64,000 nt of DNA from Acidimicrobiia bacterium (GTDB lineage: Bacteria > Actinomycetota > Acidimicrobiia > Spongiisociales > ZC4RG35), in NCBI GenBank assembly GCA_028285585.1, contig JANQOU010000003.1:62001-126000 (forward strand), in the 5' to 3' direction. The notes under the pieces were generated by a model. It did no database searches and was not told the DNA's origin. It was given only the letters and a program-made list of their open reading frames with translations. The position numbers were made by a program, and so were the translations under genes. Shown piece after piece: positions 5,692-12,302 of the stretch. Each line of letters opens with the position of its first letter. Position 1 is the first letter of the stretch.

Positions 5692-5812
5692 GGGTTCATT
5701 CGACAGTCTTGAGTTGAGATTCTTCTACTAGAGGTACTGCTCAGCCAACGTATAATGACCCGCCGATGGGGTGGGTGGCTCCATCACGCAACATCTTGTC
5801 CAGGAGTCAGTA

Positions 5813-7210
5813 ATGGGGTACGCAAGTCCGGACGTATTGATTATCGGTGGAGGTCCAGCCGGTTCGACAGCGGCCCTTCGCTTGCTAGACAACGGGGTCA
5901 AGCCGCTCATCGTCGAGCGCGAGCAGTTCCCTAGATATCATGTTGGCGAGGCGATGACTGGCGAAGGCGGAGCCATTGTCCGTGAGTTGGGTATCGACAA
6001 GAAGCTCACTCTCGACGATCACACCGTCAAGTACGGAGTCAATGTCTTTGGTAGCCGCGGCAACCCAGATTGGTGGGTTCCTGTGATGCGACGCGATGAG
6101 GACTTCGTCCTCAGTGAGGCGAACACCTACTCGGTGCGTCGCAGTGTGTTCGACAAGCTTCTCCTTGACACGGCCTTGGATGGCGGGGCCGAGCTTCTCG
6201 ATGGGCGCGCTACTGAGCCACTGGTGGACGAGGCGGGAGTCGTCGGTGGGGCAAGGGTCCAGGTCAACGGGAAAGAGGTCGACGTTCAGGCATCGATGAC
6301 TCTCGATTGCTCCGGCCAGGCGACCTTCTTGGCCAACAGGAAGGCGACGGGGCCCAAGTACAAGGGGTCGTACGATAAGCAGATTGCCGTTTTCTCCCAG
6401 ATTGCCGGTTATCAACGCGCCGACGACAGCGAAAGGGAGCAGGGTGCAGGTAACACCCACATCTTCTACAAGAAGAAGTACCACTGGGCATGGGCGATCC
6501 CACTGGATCGGGACTTGACCAGTGTGGGGATTGTCATCCCAGCGGCTTACTTTCGTGACAGCGGACTCAGCCAGGAGGAGTTCATAAAGTCAGAACTTCG
6601 AACTCTCAACAAAGGCTTGGCCGAGCGGATCCCTGAGAACGTGGAGCTGTCAGAGCCACCCCATGTGGTGCCCAACTATTCGTTCCAAGTGCGGAAGTTC
6701 GCTGGTCCTGGCTACATCTGCGTGGGTGACGCCCACAGGTTCGTCGACCCGATCTTCTCCTTCGGGCTATACGTGGCCATGAAAGAGGCCGGGCTGGCCG
6801 TGGAGCAGGTGATGAGATGGCTAGACGGTGAAGGCCGTGACTCCGACAACCCTTTCCTCGACTACATGGTCCACACCGAAGGGGCCATCGACATGGTCGA
6901 GGACATGGTTGACACCTTCTGGGAGAATCCCCTCGCCTTCGCATACATGGCACACGACAAGTTCCGCCAGCAGGTGCTCGATATGTTTGCTGGTCGCATC
7001 TATGACGGCCAGCCCGTCGTAGATCGCGACGAGGCGCTGAGCGTGTTTCGCCGGCTCCTCAAGCGGGAGCGTACATACGATGCGACAGGCGAATACTCCA
7101 TCCCGATAGGGTCGAGATACCACGCAGACCGCGCCCCGCTTTGGAACTCGGAGCTGAGCGACATCGAGAGCACCGAACGCTGGCTCGCCGAGGCCACTGA
7201 GCCTGGGTAA
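5813..7210 (+). CDS. FAD-dependent halogenase-like oxidoreductase
   Basis: 465 residues from ATG 5813, with AGGAG 7 nt upstream; an earlier in-frame start at 5771 lacks a ribosome site. The Rossmann motif IIGGGPAGS is at 10-18. WAWAIP at 225-230 fits WxWxIP, the signature of flavin-dependent halogenases, and GDAHRFVDPIFSFG near 305 is the second FAD-contact region. Such enzymes use FADH2, O2 and halide to halogenate an aromatic group, usually on a carrier or peptide. Related monooxygenases and reductases share the fold, so halogenation is an inference. It precedes an ABC exporter and the RiPP genes. Confidence 0.7.
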   Translation: MGYASPDVLIIGGGPAGSTAALRLLDNGVKPLIVEREQFPRYHVGEAMTGEGGAIVRELGIDKKLTLDDHTVKYGVNVFGSRGNPDWWVPVMRRDEDFVLSEANTYSVRRSVFDKLLLDTALDGGAELLDGRATEPLVDEAGVVGGARVQVNGKEVDVQASMTLDCSGQATFLANRKATGPKYKGSYDKQIAVFSQIAGYQRADDSEREQGAGNTHIFYKKKYHWAWAIPLDRDLTSVGIVIPAAYFRDSGLSQEEFIKSELRTLNKGLAERIPENVELSEPPHVVPNYSFQVRKFAGPGYICVGDAHRFVDPIFSFGLYVAMKEAGLAVEQVMRWLDGEGRDSDNPFLDYMVHTEGAIDMVEDMVDTFWENPLAFAYMAHDKFRQQVLDMFAGRIYDGQPVVDRDEALSVFRRLLKRERTYDATGEYSIPIGSRYHADRAPLWNSELSDIESTERWLAEATEPG

Positions 7211-7268: not shown

Positions 7269-8006
7269 TTGCTGGTTGTTGATCGACTTTCGAAGACCTA
7301 CCCCCCGGCATCCGGGGCTCTGCGCCTCGTCGTGCGCACGGCTGCCGAGGAGCCAGTGAACGCCCTAAAAGATGTCAGCTTCGAGGTCAAGGCGGGAGAG
7401 ATCGTCGGGCTTGTTGGAGCCAACGGTGCAGGCAAGACCACCTTGTTCCGCATAATCGCCGGTTTGCTCGAGCCGACTGGTGGCAGCGTCACGATCGACG
7501 GCCAGGACATCTCCAAGAGACGTAAGGAAGCGATACAGCAGCTGGGCCTCGTTCTCGAGGGGGCGCGTGGCGTCTACAAGCGTCTCACCGGACTGGAGAA
7601 CCTCGTGTTCTTCGGGGTGATGCAAGGGCTGACCAGAGATGAGGCGGCGAGCCGAGCTGTAGAGCTATTGGAGAGGCTAGGCCTGGCCGATCGTGACCGG
7701 CGTGCCTTCGGGTACTCGGCAGGGATGAGGGTTCGACTGGCCCTGGCACGCTCTCTCATCGCCGATCCCTCACTGTTGTTGTTGGACGAGCCGACTCGAA
7801 GCCTTGACCCGGCCGCTTCGCTCGATGCGATGAGGCTGGTTCTCGAACTGGCAAGCCAGGGACGTGCCGTGCTGCTGGCAACTCACCGTCTCGACGAGGT
7901 CCGGGAGTTCTGTGATCGCGTAGTCGTCTTGGAACAGGGTCGACTCACTCATGTCGGCACTCCGGCGACAACCGACTTCAAAGCCGTGTTTGGGGCCGAG
8001 ACATGA
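7269..8006 (+). CDS. ABC transporter ATP-binding protein
   Basis: 245 residues. Walker A GANGAGKTT at 50-58, signature YSAGMRVRLALAR, Walker B LLLLDEPTRSLDP and the H-loop ATHRLDE are all intact. The start codon is TTG at 7269 and is not certain. It overlaps the next gene by 4 nt and energises that ABC-2 permease. Likely cargo is the island's peptide or halogenated product. Confidence 0.88.
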   Translation: MLVVDRLSKTYPPASGALRLVVRTAAEEPVNALKDVSFEVKAGEIVGLVGANGAGKTTLFRIIAGLLEPTGGSVTIDGQDISKRRKEAIQQLGLVLEGARGVYKRLTGLENLVFFGVMQGLTRDEAASRAVELLERLGLADRDRRAFGYSAGMRVRLALARSLIADPSLLLLDEPTRSLDPAASLDAMRLVLELASQGRAVLLATHRLDEVREFCDRVVVLEQGRLTHVGTPATTDFKAVFGAET

Positions 8007-8812
8007 AGATATCGGTGCAACAAGTGCTGGCGGTGCTGAGACGTGACCTACAGGTCCAGCTGACCTATCCCTTCCAGTTCCTGTCTCGAGGGATCGGCAT
8101 CTTCGTCTCGCTGTTCACCTTCTTCTTCTTGGGGCGCCTCGTCGGCGCGTCGTCTTATCTCGATCAGTACGAGGGTGGGTACTTCGCATTCGCCCTCGTC
8201 GGGGTGGTGACCATGATCCTGGCGGGAGCGGCTTTGCAGAGCTTCACGAGCGGGCTTGGGTCCGACGCGGGCGCAGGGACCCTCGAGATCCTGCTCGCCT
8301 CCAGGGTTCGTCTCGGTGTCCTGGTGACGGGATGGATGTTGTATCCGTTGCTGCTGGCATCCGTCCAGGGACTAGTCATGTTTGGTTTCGGATGGTTCCT
8401 GGTGTCCGATGCGTTCCACCTCGGCGGTCTGTTGATCGCCGTGCTGCCCTTTGCGTTGTTGGTCCTCACGTTTTTGGCGGTGGGCGTCGCAGCCGGTGCG
8501 TTCACCGTGATCTCCAAGCGCGGCGATCCCATCTCCGGGATCTACCTGAGTGTCTCCACACTGCTCGCAGGCGCAGTGTTCCCAGTCGAGGTGCTCCCGG
8601 AATGGCTTCAGGCTATAGCCCGCCTCTTCCCGGCCTTCTACGGCTTCCGAGCGATACGCGAAGCACTCATCGGCGGAAGCACCTTTGCCGACATTCGCGG
8701 AGACGTGCTGATCCTCGTGGCCTTCAACATCGTGCTGCTGCCACTTGGCATGTGGACTCTGCGCCGAGCGCTGCACTTCGCCCGGGTGATGGGAACCCTG
8801 GCTACTTCCTGA
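8003..8812 (+). CDS. ABC-2 type transporter permease
   Basis: 269 residues with about six hydrophobic segments, coupled to the ATPase by an ATGA overlap. The late motif SGIYLSVSTLLAGAVFPVEVLPEWLQ (split here around the P-x-E loop, residues about 178-203) is typical of ABC-2 exporters of drugs, polysaccharides or peptides. It ends 13 nt before the convergent B1 gene. Probable role is export or immunity for the RiPP locus. Confidence 0.85.
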   Translation: MKISVQQVLAVLRRDLQVQLTYPFQFLSRGIGIFVSLFTFFFLGRLVGASSYLDQYEGGYFAFALVGVVTMILAGAALQSFTSGLGSDAGAGTLEILLASRVRLGVLVTGWMLYPLLLASVQGLVMFGFGWFLVSDAFHLGGLLIAVLPFALLVLTFLAVGVAAGAFTVISKRGDPISGIYLSVSTLLAGAVFPVEVLPEWLQAIARLFPAFYGFRAIREALIGGSTFADIRGDVLILVAFNIVLLPLGMWTLRRALHFARVMGTLATS

Positions 8813-8824
8813 GCGGTTGGTGCC

Positions 8825-9088
8825 TTACTTCTCCAGCATGTTCAGCTCGTCGAGCTGATTGATGAAGGCTTGTGCGTCGGTCTGGGCGAGATCGAGCTCG
8901 ATCTCGAAGGTGTCCACCAGCTGCTGGGCGAGGGCATCGACTGTCGCACCATCCTTGAGGGATTCCCACAACACCGTTCCAGCCGGGTTGGTTGCGAAGT
9001 ACTGCTCCGAATCGTCGTCGAGGATCACGGTCTCGTCGACCGCTTTCACCGACTCGAGATCGGACCTGAGTTTGAAGAGTCTTTCCAT
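8825..9088 (-). CDS. PqqD-like RiPP recognition protein (lasso B1 type)
   Basis: 87 residues from ATG 9088 with GGAGGAAAC directly upstream. The sequence pattern (ILDDDSEQYFATNPAGTVLW, then a helical half ending DELNML) is that of stand-alone PqqD-fold proteins, which bind precursor leader peptides and hand them to modifying enzymes. It follows the B2 gene by 30 nt on the same strand. In lasso peptide clusters the B1-B2 pair removes the leader. Partner precursors lie 1.5-3.2 kb away. Confidence 0.82.
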   Translation of the reverse strand: MERLFKLRSDLESVKAVDETVILDDDSEQYFATNPAGTVLWESLKDGATVDALAQQLVDTFEIELDLAQTDAQAFINQLDELNMLEK

Positions 9089-9118
9089 GTTTCCTCCGCC
9101 GGGCAGGCTAACCACGTT

Positions 9119-9583
9119 TCATCTGAACGAATCTGGGCCTGCAGTCTCAGCTTGATCCGTGGACAAAGGCAGGTACTTCGTCTTGACCGACTGCGGGTCG
9201 TTGAGCACCAACCCATCCAGCTCGACCCAGGCGTGGAACTGATGCGGCTCGCCGGTCTCGCCCCTGGTGACGCCTCGGACGATGTGTGCGTCGTCTCCGG
9301 CCACCCAGAGGACGGCAAGGGAGCGCTCCAGGCAAGTGAAGACCAGTGGCCGAAGCCGGGCAACCCGATCCACGAAGTGGGCGACTTCCGGCATCTCATC
9401 AGGGCCCATGGTCGGGATTCCTGTGTCTTTGAGAGCACTCAGCGTGGTTGCGTAGCCGTCCCGCCGAAGCGAGCGCCTCGCTTTGGGAAGATAGGCCAGG
9501 GCCTTCAGCGCGGTCTTCCGGGCAGGCCGAGACAGGGCTCGGTATTGCCTGACTCCTCTGAGCAGTTTCCGCATCATCGACAT
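9119..9583 (-). CDS. Lasso-peptide B2-type leader peptidase (transglutaminase-like)
   Basis: 154 residues. The Cys-His-Asp triad of this family is visible: Cys84 in TCLERSLAVLW, His117 in PHQFHAWVELDG and Asp129 in LNDPQ. B2 enzymes cleave the leader from RiPP precursors with help of the B1 protein encoded just downstream. The ATG overlaps the ATG of the divergent kinase gene inside one CATG, leaving no shared promoter gap; an alternative start is Met4. No asparagine-synthetase-like cyclase gene is present nearby. Confidence 0.85.
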   Translation of the reverse strand: MSMMRKLLRGVRQYRALSRPARKTALKALAYLPKARRSLRRDGYATTLSALKDTGIPTMGPDEMPEVAHFVDRVARLRPLVFTCLERSLAVLWVAGDDAHIVRGVTRGETGEPHQFHAWVELDGLVLNDPQSVKTKYLPLSTDQAETAGPDSFR

Positions 9584-10430
9584 GATCTCACGACAGCGGA
9601 TCGCAGTCGATTACCGTCGCCAGGTGTCCACATCTTCACACGGTGCCTACGGTTTTCGTCTGTCCGGGCTGGACGATGCTCTGGATTGGTTGAACCCCGC
9701 ACCGGACGACTGGCCGACGGTAGAGGTGAAGCAGGAGGTCGCTCCGCCTGATGAGTCTTCGCGGTTCGACGAGGAGGTGAGGGCGTTTCCGCTCATGGGG
9801 GGCTACCGACTCGAGGTGATGCGTGCCGAACGAAGGGTTCTGTTCTCAGGCCCTGAGCCACTGAGTAGCCCTGCCCTCATCCACCCATTCCTGGCCCCGG
9901 CTGCGTCGGTGTTGTGTCGATGGGAAGACTGGCCCCCTTTTCATGCTGGGGCGTTCGTCGTCAACGGAGAGGCCTGGGCCCTGACTGCTGACCGAAACGG
10001 AGGGAAGAGCACCACGCTTGCTGCTCTCGCCGAGTCGGGTGTGCCGGTGCTGACCGACGACTTGGTCGTCCTCAAGGAGAGTCACGTGGCAGCCGGCCCT
10101 CGTTCCGTTGACTTGCGGGATCCTCGCGACTTCTCAGATGTCGAGTATCTAGGGGAGCTGGGAAGGCGGGAGCGTTGGAGGAAGCAGCTAGCGCCGGTGC
10201 CGGCGGAAGTGCCCGTGGCTGGTGTCATCCAGCTCGTTTGGTCCGATGCTCCCGGTGTTCACTGGGTTTCGATGGAAGAGAAGCCGGAGATCATCAAGGA
10301 AGGGCTCTCGTACTCAGCCTCTGGTCGGGCCATGCTCGATGTGCTGCGTCTCCCTATGGTCCGGGTCGGCCGTCCGCGAGGAGAGCTGACAGAGACGATC
10401 GATCTGGTGCTGGAGGCGGTGAGGGCGTAG
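9582..10430 (+). CDS. HPr-kinase-like RiPP-associated kinase, copy 1
   Basis: 282 residues. A P-loop ADRNGGKST sits at 136-144, preceded by FHAGAF (His121) and followed by PVLTDDLVVL; this is the HPrK fold used by kinases that phosphorylate Ser in lasso precursors. No PTS gene is in the window, so a regulatory HPr role is unlikely. It is about two-thirds identical by eye to copy 2 at 10713. The downstream convergent gene encodes precursor 1. Likely reaction: ATP-dependent phosphorylation of a Ser/Thr in the precursor core. Confidence 0.75.
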   Translation: MISRQRIAVDYRRQVSTSSHGAYGFRLSGLDDALDWLNPAPDDWPTVEVKQEVAPPDESSRFDEEVRAFPLMGGYRLEVMRAERRVLFSGPEPLSSPALIHPFLAPAASVLCRWEDWPPFHAGAFVVNGEAWALTADRNGGKSTTLAALAESGVPVLTDDLVVLKESHVAAGPRSVDLRDPRDFSDVEYLGELGRRERWRKQLAPVPAEVPVAGVIQLVWSDAPGVHWVSMEEKPEIIKEGLSYSASGRAMLDVLRLPMVRVGRPRGELTETIDLVLEAVRA

Positions 10431-10461
10431 GAAGGGAACCTGCGCAAGCTGCTCAGACAAA

Positions 10462-10491
10462 GAAGCCGGGCCCCTTCGGGGGCCCGGCTTC
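10462..10491. terminator. Bidirectional terminator between kinase 1 and precursor 1
   Basis: A perfect 13-bp stem GAAGCCGGGCCCC/GGGGCCCGGCTTC with TTCG loop. On the minus strand it is followed by TTTG and would end the precursor 1 transcript; on the plus strand it would end the kinase transcript. Confidence 0.85.
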
Positions 10492-10510
10492 CGTAAGCGA
10501 CTGTCGAGGT

Positions 10511-10636
10511 TCAGGCTACGTCGTTCACGGGCGTAGTGGTGACGATGATGGACACGACCGGGGCCGTATCAGGCACGCCTTGGGTCAGCTCGGCAACGCT
10601 GCCAAGCGAACGGACTGTTGGTGCTTCGTAGGACAT
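10511..10636 (-). CDS. RiPP precursor peptide 1
   Basis: 41 residues, too short for routine gene calling. Leader MSYEAPTVRSLGSVAELT matches the lasso-type pattern YxxP...LG...LT, with the Thr expected at position -2 of the cleavage site. The predicted core starts GVPDTAPVVS and ends TPVNDVA. It has Asp at core position 4 and none at 7-9, so a standard lasso ring cannot be drawn. A strong SD (GGGAGG) lies 7 nt upstream. Leader identity with precursors 2 and 3 makes this a real gene. Confidence 0.85.
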   Translation of the reverse strand: MSYEAPTVRSLGSVAELTQGVPDTAPVVSIIVTTTPVNDVA

Positions 10637-10682
10637 GTGCTGCCTCCCTGTGTTCGCGGTCGCAATAAACCCACCTGATGCC

Positions 10683-10706
10683 AGCGTAGCAGTTCAATAC
10701 TCTCCG
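10683..10706 (-). promoter_or_regulatory. Putative promoter of precursor 1
   Basis: Read on the minus strand: CGGAGAGT, a 10-nt gap, then TACGCT. The same CGGAGAGT box with TATTGT or TAGATT follows at the same distance upstream of precursors 2 and 3. Shared position before three paralogous genes is the evidence; the sigma factor is unknown. Confidence 0.5.
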
Positions 10707-10722
10707 TGACGAGTGGTCACGG
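10704..10722. promoter_or_regulatory. Palindrome CCGTGAC-N5-GTCACGG, possible operator
   Basis: A perfect 7-bp inverted repeat between the divergent precursor 1 and kinase 2 genes. It recurs at 11893-11911 with a different 5-nt centre but intact arms, which suggests selection. It overlaps the upstream end of the CGGAGAGT box, so a repressor here could block precursor transcription. Confidence 0.5.
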
Positions 10723-11573
10723 TGCGTTTCTACTTGAGGTTGGTCACGGTCGATTACCGTCGGAAGGTGTCAACACCTTCGCATGGTGCTTACGGCTTTC
10801 GCTTCTCGGGAGTTGAGGATGCACTGGATTGGTTGAACCCTGCACCATCTGATTGGCCTGTCGCGGACGTGGAGCAGCGTGTCGGTGTAGTCACGGAGCC
10901 ATCTCGTCCTCGCGACGACGTGATGGAGAAGCTGCTCAAGGGAGACCGGAGCTTGCGCGTCTTTCCGTTCGAGCGGCGAGCCGTGCTGACCGGGCCCAAG
11001 CCGGTAAGCAGTGCTGCTCTCATCCATCCTTACCTGGCACCGGCTGGTGCCGTGTTGGCCTGGAGAGAAGATTGGCCTTCCCTGCATTCAGGTGCCTTCA
11101 TGGTGGGGGACAAAGCCTGGATTCTGGCCGCCGACAAAGATGGAGGAAAAAGCACCACACTTGCTGCTCTCACCGACTCAGGCCGTCCAGTCTTGTCAGA
11201 CGATGTCGTCGTTCTCAAGAACGGTCAGGTGGCGGCTGGCCCCCGTTCCATTGACCTGAGAGCACCGAGCGCTGCTCCCGATGTCGAGCATGTGGGGGTG
11301 TTGGGGCGGAGAGAGCATTGGAGAAAACGACTTCCGCCGGTACCGCCGGAAGTGCCGGTAGCGGGTTTGATTCAGCTCGTCTGGTCAGACACGGTGAGCG
11401 TCGCTCCAATTCCACTCGGCGAGAGACCGGACCTGGTTAAGAGCAGGTTGGCGTACCCGGCCTCCGCTCGTCCGACGTTGGGCATCCTTCGTCTTCCCAT
11501 GATTCGGGTCTCCCGGCCTCGCGGAGATCTCAGCGAGACGACCGACCTGGTTCTCGAGGCAGCCGACGGGTAG
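10713..11573 (+). CDS. HPr-kinase-like RiPP-associated kinase, copy 2
   Basis: 286 residues. Same architecture as copy 1: LHSGAF, P-loop ADKDGGKST, PVLSDDVVVL, then the C-terminal RPRGDLSETTDLVLEA. The longest reading starts at GTG 10713, inside the palindrome; TTG at 10734 or 10740 would align better with copy 1 and leave the palindrome untranslated. The second half of the 10.4-11.9 kb segment repeats the layout kinase (+), terminator, precursor (-), so a cassette duplication is clear. Confidence 0.75.
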   Translation: MVTVRFYLRLVTVDYRRKVSTPSHGAYGFRFSGVEDALDWLNPAPSDWPVADVEQRVGVVTEPSRPRDDVMEKLLKGDRSLRVFPFERRAVLTGPKPVSSAALIHPYLAPAGAVLAWREDWPSLHSGAFMVGDKAWILAADKDGGKSTTLAALTDSGRPVLSDDVVVLKNGQVAAGPRSIDLRAPSAAPDVEHVGVLGRREHWRKRLPPVPPEVPVAGLIQLVWSDTVSVAPIPLGERPDLVKSRLAYPASARPTLGILRLPMIRVSRPRGDLSETTDLVLEAADG

Positions 11574-11596
11574 CCGTAGTTGGCCCGCCAAGAAAA

Positions 11597-11627
11597 AAGA
11601 CGGGAACTCAGAAGAAGTTCCCGTCTT
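11597..11627. terminator. Terminator between kinase 2 and precursor 2
   Basis: A 12-bp stem AAGACGGGAACT/AGTTCCCGTCTT with a 7-nt loop. On the minus strand it runs into TTTTTT, a strong intrinsic terminator for precursor 2. Confidence 0.85.
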
Positions 11628-11693
11628 AGTCGACTGCCAGAAAGGCACCGCTTGTGTGCCTCTCTGCTCAGCCTCTGCGTGTGTTCTTGGTGA

Positions 11694-11816
11694 TTAGGGC
11701 AGTGCCGTTGTCGGGACCGTAGGTCTGACGGACACGTCCGGAATCGTCTTCGTCACTTGAAGGGTGATCTCGGCCACGCTCCCGAGTGAGCGCACTGCTG
11801 GTGCTTCGTAGGACAT
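11694..11816 (-). CDS. RiPP precursor peptide 2
   Basis: 40 residues; ATG with GGGGAGG upstream. Leader MSYEAPAVRSLGSVAEIT differs from precursor 1 at two of 18 positions. The predicted core begins QVTKTIPDVSVR and ends PTTALP. With cleavage two residues after the Thr rule, Asp falls at core position 8, the usual ring-closing place of a lasso peptide, although residue 1 would be Gln rather than Gly. Codon use differs little from precursor 1 in the leader and strongly in the core. Confidence 0.85.
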   Translation of the reverse strand: MSYEAPAVRSLGSVAEITLQVTKTIPDVSVRPTVPTTALP

Positions 11817-11871
11817 TGTCCGGGCCTCCCCTTGTTCTCTGTTCCTTGGTCGTATCGACCCACCTGTGGCA

Positions 11872-11895
11872 ACAATAGCATCCCAATACTCTCCG
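11872..11895 (-). promoter_or_regulatory. Putative promoter of precursor 2
   Basis: On the minus strand CGGAGAGT, 10 nt, TATTGT. This matches the element before precursor 1 and is the best -10 sequence of the three. Confidence 0.5.
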
Positions 11896-11911
11896 TGACG
11901 AGCCGTCACGG
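11893..11911. promoter_or_regulatory. Second copy of the CCGTGAC-N5-GTCACGG palindrome
   Basis: Arms identical to 10704-10722, centre GAGCC instead of GAGTG. Retained although the adjoining kinase copy is deleted, which points to a role for the divergent precursor promoter. Confidence 0.5.
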
Positions 11912-12066
11912 TGTGTTTCTACTTGAGGTTGGTCACGGTCGACTGCTGTCCAAGGTGCTCACACCTACATGTGGTGCCTACGGCTTTCGTTGATTCGGGT
12001 CTTCCGGCCCTCACGGAGATCTCAGCGAGACGACCGACCTGGTTCTCGAGGCAGCCGAGGGGCTGG
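11911..12066 (+). pseudogene. Internally deleted third HPr-kinase-like gene
   Basis: The first about 80 nt match the 5' end of kinase 2 (TTTCTACTTGAGGTTGGTCA, later GGTGCCTACGGCTTTCG). The sequence then jumps to the last about 70 nt of kinase 2 (ATTCGGGTCTTCCGG, then TCAGCGAGACGACCGACCTG). About 700 bp including the P-loop are missing, so no kinase can be made. It is followed by the same terminator type and by precursor 3, marking a third decayed cassette. Confidence 0.85.
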
Positions 12067-12091
12067 TGGCAAAAGGCCGCCACCGCAAAGG

Positions 12092-12123
12092 AAAGACGGG
12101 AACCCATGAGAGTTCCCGTCTTT
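12092..12123. terminator. Terminator between kinase remnant and precursor 3
   Basis: Stem AAAGACGGGAAC against GTTCCCGTCTTT, nearly the same as 11597-11627, with T runs on both sides. Its likely function is to end precursor 3 on the minus strand. Confidence 0.8.
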
Positions 12124-12173
12124 CGTCAGTTAGCGAGTAGGCAAGAACCTTCTCGCTCAGTTCTTGGTTGTGA

Positions 12174-12302
12174 TCAGTCCAGTGAGGACGCCGAAACCCC
12201 GTTCGGGACTCTTATGGAACCGTTCGGAAGCGTCTTGCTCACCTGAAGTGTGATCTCAGCAACGCTCCCGAGTGAGCGCACCGATGGTGCTTCGTAGGAC
12301 AT
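12174..12302 (-). CDS. RiPP precursor peptide 3
   Basis: 42 residues; ATG with GGGAGG upstream. Leader MSYEAPSVRSLGSVAEIT is again conserved. The predicted core begins QVSKTLPNGSIR and ends SASSLD. It aligns without gaps to precursor 2 (QVxKTxP), but core position 8 is Asn rather than Asp, so a normal macrolactam would need another residue. The core is rich in Ser, a possible kinase target, although its own kinase copy is deleted. Confidence 0.83.
   Translation of the reverse strand: MSYEAPSVRSLGSVAEITLQVSKTLPNGSIRVPNGVSASSLD

Follow-up and report, generated by a model that had tools for sequence, protein, structure and literature searches.

Here we describe a peptide locus at positions 7269-12302 of a 64,000-nt window (the whole stretch of DNA analysed) from an Acidimicrobiia bacterium (GenBank assembly GCA_028285585.1, contig JANQOU010000003.1, positions 62,001 to 126,000 of the forward strand). 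The assembly holds the genes of a lasso-type pathway for a ribosomally synthesized and post-translationally modified peptide (RiPP), with intact catalytic residues and a predicted kinase fold, and it holds no macrolactam cyclase. Because the parts for recognition, phosphorylation, cutting and export have been kept and the cyclase lost, the pathway now most likely makes straight, phosphorylated peptides. If so, the pathway has given up the ring by which lasso peptides are defined and retained the remaining steps, and the effect of phosphorylation on these peptides could be tested directly, free of the confounding ring. A similar end point is known from the linear polyphosphorylated peptides (LPPs), described in 2026 from Bacillota as cyclase-free, HprK-phosphorylated linear peptides that depend on a RiPP recognition element (RRE), with lasso-like leaders and an SpI-type peptidase (PMC13381572); our reading suggests that this linear-phosphopeptide outcome has arisen again from different parts.

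The initial annotation of positions 8825-12302 listed a PqqD-like B1, a Cys-His-Asp B2, two HPr-kinase-like genes, a deleted third kinase and three precursors of 40-42 residues. Profiles, the predicted fold and blastn confirm these contents, although the adjoining ATP-binding cassette (ABC) transporter (7269-8812) had been overlooked. B1 (8825-9088, minus strand; ATG at 9088 preceded by GGAGG), a discrete RRE that would present the leader, matches PF05402 (4.6e-14); its best NCBIfam model, NF033530 lasso_PqqD_Strm, scores 49 bits, below the cut-off of 70. The putative Cys-His-Asp leader peptidase B2 (9119-9583, minus strand) matches PF13471 (9.5e-16) and exceeds the cut-off of NF033537 lasso_biosyn_B2 (45 bits against 33), with CLERS, FHAW and LND motifs conserved with its lasso relatives. 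The locus thus has the RRE and B2 cysteine peptidase expected of a lasso pathway, while neither B1 nor the kinases reach the NCBIfam sub-family cut-offs. All three precursors, each preceded by a GGGAGG-type ribosome site, lie on the minus strand and exceed the NF033521 lasso_leader_L3 cut-off of 19 bits: P1 (10511-10636, 41 residues, 28.7 bits), P2 (11694-11816, 40 residues, 22.3 bits) and P3 (12174-12302, 42 residues, 21.0 bits). They share the leader YEAPxVRSLGSVAE[LI]T, in which the lasso-type YxxPx[L/V] and a Thr at -2 are present in all three. Assuming a cut one residue past this Thr, P1 reads MSYEAPTVRSLGSVAELTQ / GVPDTAPVVSIIVTTTPVNDVA, with its predicted core after the slash, and the predicted cores of P2 and P3 are QVTKTIPDVSVRPTVPTTALP and QVSKTLPNGSIRVPNGVSASSLD.

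The kinases K1 (9582-10430, plus strand, start codon uncertain) and K2 (10713-11573, plus strand, start possibly further downstream; 60% identical to K1) are both intact. Their matches to HprK_rel_A (TIGR04352) are weak, 18.5 and 23.5 bits against a curated cut-off of 200. An AlphaFold (AF2) model of K2, with a predicted local distance difference test score (pLDDT) of 86 and a predicted template-modelling score (pTM) of 0.84, matches phosphoenolpyruvate carboxykinases (6asn, 3e-8) and HPr kinases (3tqf, 2e-6; range 2e-6 to 1e-5) in the PDB; the two families have one common P-loop fold. Furthermore, both kinases carry His, Lys, Ser, Asp and Asp at +0, +21, +22, +38 and +39 (H121, K142, S143, D159 and D160 in K1; the Lys and second Asp are K146 and D164 in K2), the same spacing as in BsfK (H148, K169, S170, D186 and D187; PMC10368454). 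Eight other kinases have 36 residues invariantly in common, of which K1 keeps 35 and K2 keeps 32. The equivalent of BsfK G163, whose change to Ala harms that enzyme (PMC10368454), is Ala in both; since Ala also stands there in the kinases of G241 and G354, two genomes of the same order, this is variation within the family. By motif and predicted fold, then, K1 and K2 are probable lasso/HPrK-type peptide kinases. Of a third copy there is a plus-strand remnant (11905-12062) from which ~685 nt have been lost internally: by blastn, 11905-11989 matches the 5' end of K2 at 84% and 11977-12062 its 3' end at 90%.

Reading the locus as lasso-type yet without an asparagine-synthetase-like cyclase in the 64 kb, as the initial annotation did, has held up. 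Within the window, the best match to a cyclase profile hidden Markov model has an E-value of 0.26 and tblastn matches are at chance level, while the short-type relatives detect the cyclase of G022, a genome of the same family, at 1e-62 or better; hmmsearch --max and tblastn likewise rule out a cyclase pseudogene, no remnant having been found. Over the whole 2.59-Mb genome (14 contigs, 96.85% complete), PF00733 Asn_synthase gave nothing above cut-off, its sole sub-threshold match being MnmA, and a profile built from five closely related short-type lasso cyclases gave a single match, CysD, at 18.8 bits. The annotation's first alternative, a cyclase encoded elsewhere, is therefore not borne out by these genome-wide searches; its second, a RiPP class in which phosphorylation replaces ring closure, fits best, although the LPPs are an earlier example of such a class and phosphorylation itself is here presumed. 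That a cyclase acts in trans or sits in the unassembled 3%, and that phosphorylated lasso peptides of the ordinary kind result, appears improbable: the fragmented and slightly incomplete assembly leaves room for it and P2 retains an Asp at core position 8, but the locus lies well inside a 230-kb contig, the sensitive profile search was negative, P1 and P3 have no acid at positions 7-9, and the cyclase stands within the cluster in G022, G241, G354, G162, G170, G320, G240 and G337.

In the pathway that we propose, B1 would bind YEAPxV of the common leader and recruit the precursor, and K1 and/or K2 would phosphorylate a core Ser or Thr. Candidate sites are Thr5 and Ser10, present in all three cores, and, in P2 and P3, the Thr or Ser at position 3 that corresponds to the BsfK/LppK site. 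B2 would then remove the leader one residue past Thr(-2), and the ABC transporter would export linear phosphopeptides of 21-23 residues. BsfB1 strongly speeds phosphorylation by BsfK and aids cleavage (PMC10368454); LPP precursors that are not phosphorylated lose their leader inefficiently (PMC13381572).

Differences between P1 and P2 at first, second and third codon positions number 2, 0 and 7 in the leader and 12, 10 and 12 in the core, as is commonly seen where the leader is conserved and the core diversifies. Aligned without gaps, the cores have V2, T5, P7 and S10 in common, and shuffling gives p values of 0.047 for P1-P2 and 0.005 for P1-P3, two tests that are not independent, as P2 and P3 are close copies. 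Position 3 is Pro in P1, Thr in P2 and Ser in P3; no core contains Trp, Tyr or Phe, and none of the three precursors ends in the C-terminal Ser of a paeninodin-type site. Lasso ring closure uses an Asp or Glu at core position 7-9 (PMC9266682), which of the three focal cores only P2 has (Asp8). More broadly, such an acid is present in 9 of 12 cores from cyclase-positive loci and in 1 of 7 from cyclase-free ones (Fisher p 0.02, cores within one locus not being independent).

Several observations weigh against linear phosphopeptides. A predicted core lacking an acid at 7-9 also occurs in three of the six cyclase-positive loci (G354, G162 and G295), which leaves the core argument weak on its own, and we dropped the focal cores as proof of linearity by themselves; conversely, with its Asp8, P2 could still close a ring. 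LppK of the LPP system failed to use an S3T substrate, and in P1 this position is Pro. The assembly lacks about 3% of the genome, and no nucleotidyltransferase, a gene often present in phospho-lasso and LPP clusters, could be recognised next to the locus, where no profile search for it was made. Moreover, phosphorylation, its site, cleavage, export and the linearity of the product are all steps that we infer. The locus might instead be a lasso locus in decay, its cyclase lost, its other genes on their way out and no functional product made. The deletion of one kinase copy, the traceless loss of the cyclase from the window and the retention of a ring-position acid in a single core would all suit such decay, yet both remaining kinases, B1, B2, the two transporter genes and the three precursors are open with their catalytic residues kept. 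Indeed, K1 and K2 differ with a nonsynonymous rate (dN) of 0.307 and a synonymous rate (dS) of 1.655 (NG86), a ratio of ~0.19 that is approximate because dS is near saturation, and changes in the leader are mostly synonymous. These patterns are consistent with purifying selection acting on the kinases and the leaders; they are rough long-term averages that leave the cyclase loss undated and may predate it. On balance we consider decay unlikely, albeit the most serious of the competing accounts.

The arrangement of the genes bears on what the kinases act upon. From 7269 to 12302, a two-gene ABC transporter on the plus strand is followed by B1 and B2 on the minus strand and then by three kinase-precursor units, within each of which kinase (plus) and precursor (minus) are convergent. 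Neighbouring units meet in divergent pairs, P1/K2 and P2/third kinase, each with a common ~90-nt promoter region; the two copies of this region are 84% identical. A perfect 7+7 palindrome, CCGTGAC-N5-GTCACGG, lies in the P1/K2 divergent region (10704-10722) and again between P2 and the kinase remnant (11893-11911). Two copies in the window compare with 0.02 expected, though both lie in duplicated DNA and are thus not independent of each other; this operator-like element may be a regulator-binding site. Were the kinases to act on another protein, the product would be an unmodified peptide merely freed of its leader. Homologous kinases do occur beside PqqD in polysaccharide-type loci without a visible precursor, but here the kinase genes have been duplicated along with the precursors, as divergent pairs with one promoter region, and characterised lasso and LPP kinases act on precursors (PMC10368454, PMC13381572). 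We therefore rate another kinase target as rather improbable.

The transporter consists of a DrrA-like ATPase, a probable exporter component (7269-8006, plus strand; PF00005 4e-34), and its partner, an ABC-2 permease (8003-8812, plus strand; PF01061 2e-15). Among 34 genomes of the family, only G022 has a copy of the ATPase (66% identical), and that copy lies inside a lasso locus, whose permease is 48% identical to the focal one and whose B1 and B2 are 47% and 42% identical to their focal counterparts. These comparisons argue that the transporter is part of the locus. The same cannot be said of a flavin-dependent halogenase-like gene (5771-7210; CmlS/Trp_halogenase family) that ends 58 bp before the transporter on the same strand. 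Against its being the main tailoring enzyme, with the kinases in a secondary role, stands the absence of Trp, Tyr and Phe from the cores; in addition, the regions around its close orthologues (62-79%) in G020 and G008 contain no B1, B2 or kinase, and the lasso loci tested have no homologue. On this orthologue context we reject the gene as a locus member, and a tailoring role for it seems very improbable. One of the two halogenase-like copies in G008 has an in-frame TGA.

Relatives suggest how the cyclase-free state arose. Within the class, B2 loci with a cyclase in the cluster occur in G022, G241, G354, G162, G170, G271, G320, G240, G328, G337 and G342. On contigs long enough to judge (G395 and G314 were left out, their contig ends being too near), the cyclase also accompanies the K1/K2 kinase subfamily and other lasso genes in G241, G354, G162, G295 and G537. 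G022 (contig C335), the nearest transporter and B2 relative, likewise has a cyclase, and its core has Gly1 and Asp9. Since the kinase-subfamily relatives and G022 carry the cyclase, its loss in the focal lineage is the simplest reading, and the relatives G022, G241, G354, G162 and G295 mark the focal locus as a derived lasso pathway. Beside the lasso locus of G241 (L034, 5824-7661), where at least seven short lasso-like precursors stand in a row, most with DGS shortly past the leader, is a gene for an acyltransferase-like protein, by eye LpxL-like, which G354 has as well.

Four other B1-B2-kinase loci (G156, G122, G069 and G376) have no SGGxDS-type cyclase within 17-20 kb, at least 6 kb on each side of B2. 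Parsimony on the cyclase-free label gives three changes, although the B2 and kinase trees have few supported branches and one origin is also compatible. It is conceivable, if somewhat short of an even chance, that cyclase-free B1-B2-kinase loci are a recurrent kind of RiPP in Acidimicrobiia that arose from lasso pathways on more than one occasion (focal; G069; the G156/G122/G376 group) and independently of the LPPs; their products would be linear phosphopeptides released by the B2 peptidase. The loci of G156 and G122 (L088, 6164-6238 and 10478-10558, both plus strand; L091, 10456-10593, minus strand) have precursors such as MKRPYRKPQVRRLGLLRKLTRFSF, whose predicted cores would be only three or four residues long (FSF, FSVV) if B2 cuts one residue past Thr(-2); their B2 keeps Cys and His (GHCW) and not the usual Asn-Asp. 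G069, a genome 100% complete, has at L092 5357-10662 a B1, a B2, a kinase with weak HPrK likeness, an ABC transporter and a nucleotidyltransferase-like gene, together with the precursor VKYETPQIKDFGSIAEHTFMPGDCKPRLLTFQQYDGCHHS, whose core has two Cys; no cyclase lies in 20 kb. In G360 (L044, 6241-7233) a lone kinase of the K1/K2 subfamily directly precedes a lasso-like precursor, YEAPLLSIIGRVEDLTEGDSPPSQVN; no B1, B2 or cyclase lies within 20 kb, and the 84%-complete genome has no match to Asn_synthase or Transglut_core3. In a contig scan with the kinases, alignment A1 proved too diverse, and a smaller alignment gave one new locus besides three that were known before. Kinase family f3 (G239, G352, G255 and G340; L036, L039, L040 and L042) was set aside as a different system in which no precursor was seen: the kinase homologue has a Wzz-like protein and an SLC13-like transporter as neighbours, and several of these loci also contain PqqD, recalling the polysaccharide setting of LPPs.

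Among known systems, phosphorylated lasso pathways are close to the focal locus. Bsf of Bradymonas sediminis (PMC10368454) and paeninodin (PMC9266682) likewise combine B1, B2, an HPrK-like kinase, an ABC transporter and a YxxP leader, but also have a cyclase and, as lasso peptides by definition, a ring, and the C-terminal Ser phosphorylated in paeninodin-type peptides has no focal counterpart. The lasso locus of G022 resembles the focal one in transporter, B2, B1 and leader (YESPTIRVLGSIHELT) and differs in its cyclase, nucleotidyltransferase-like gene, Gly1/Asp9 core and other HPrK subfamily. The HPr-rel-A system (TIGR04352/TIGR04353) also pairs a PqqD-like protein with an HprK-related kinase and requires no cyclase; here, K1 and K2 fall far below the kinase cut-off, and B1 scores 21 bits against 35.

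A close functional parallel is offered by the LPPs, viewed in their description as the linear counterparts of phosphorylated lasso peptides (PMC13381572). The cluster of Paenibacillus alginolyticus (lppA-K-B-S-D-N; PMC13381572) shares with ours a discrete RRE, an HprK-like kinase, a YxxP-type leader, a transporter and the lack of a macrolactam cyclase, and its product is linear and phosphorylated, as we propose by analogy for the focal peptides. In LPPs, however, an archaeal-type SpI peptidase removes the leader, usually with a nucleoside triphosphate (NTP) transferase nearby, while in the focal locus a lasso B2 would fill the peptidase role. The LPP leader, YxxPxVLxHQxIxFETxxS, is cut past T(-1), whereas the focal leader lacks that motif and has its Thr at -2; LPPs carry their phosphate(s) on core Ser3, which P3 alone possesses; and LPPs are reported as restricted to Bacillota, whereas the focal host is an actinomycetote. 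No account of a B1-B2-kinase pathway lacking a cyclase came up in the open-access papers searched, a limited set. A cyclase-free RiPP built on a kinase and an RRE is not categorically new, having been demonstrated in the laboratory so far only for the related, differently built Bacillota system; the focal locus appears to work like an LPP pathway, yet by its leader motif it is not one, and it uses B2.

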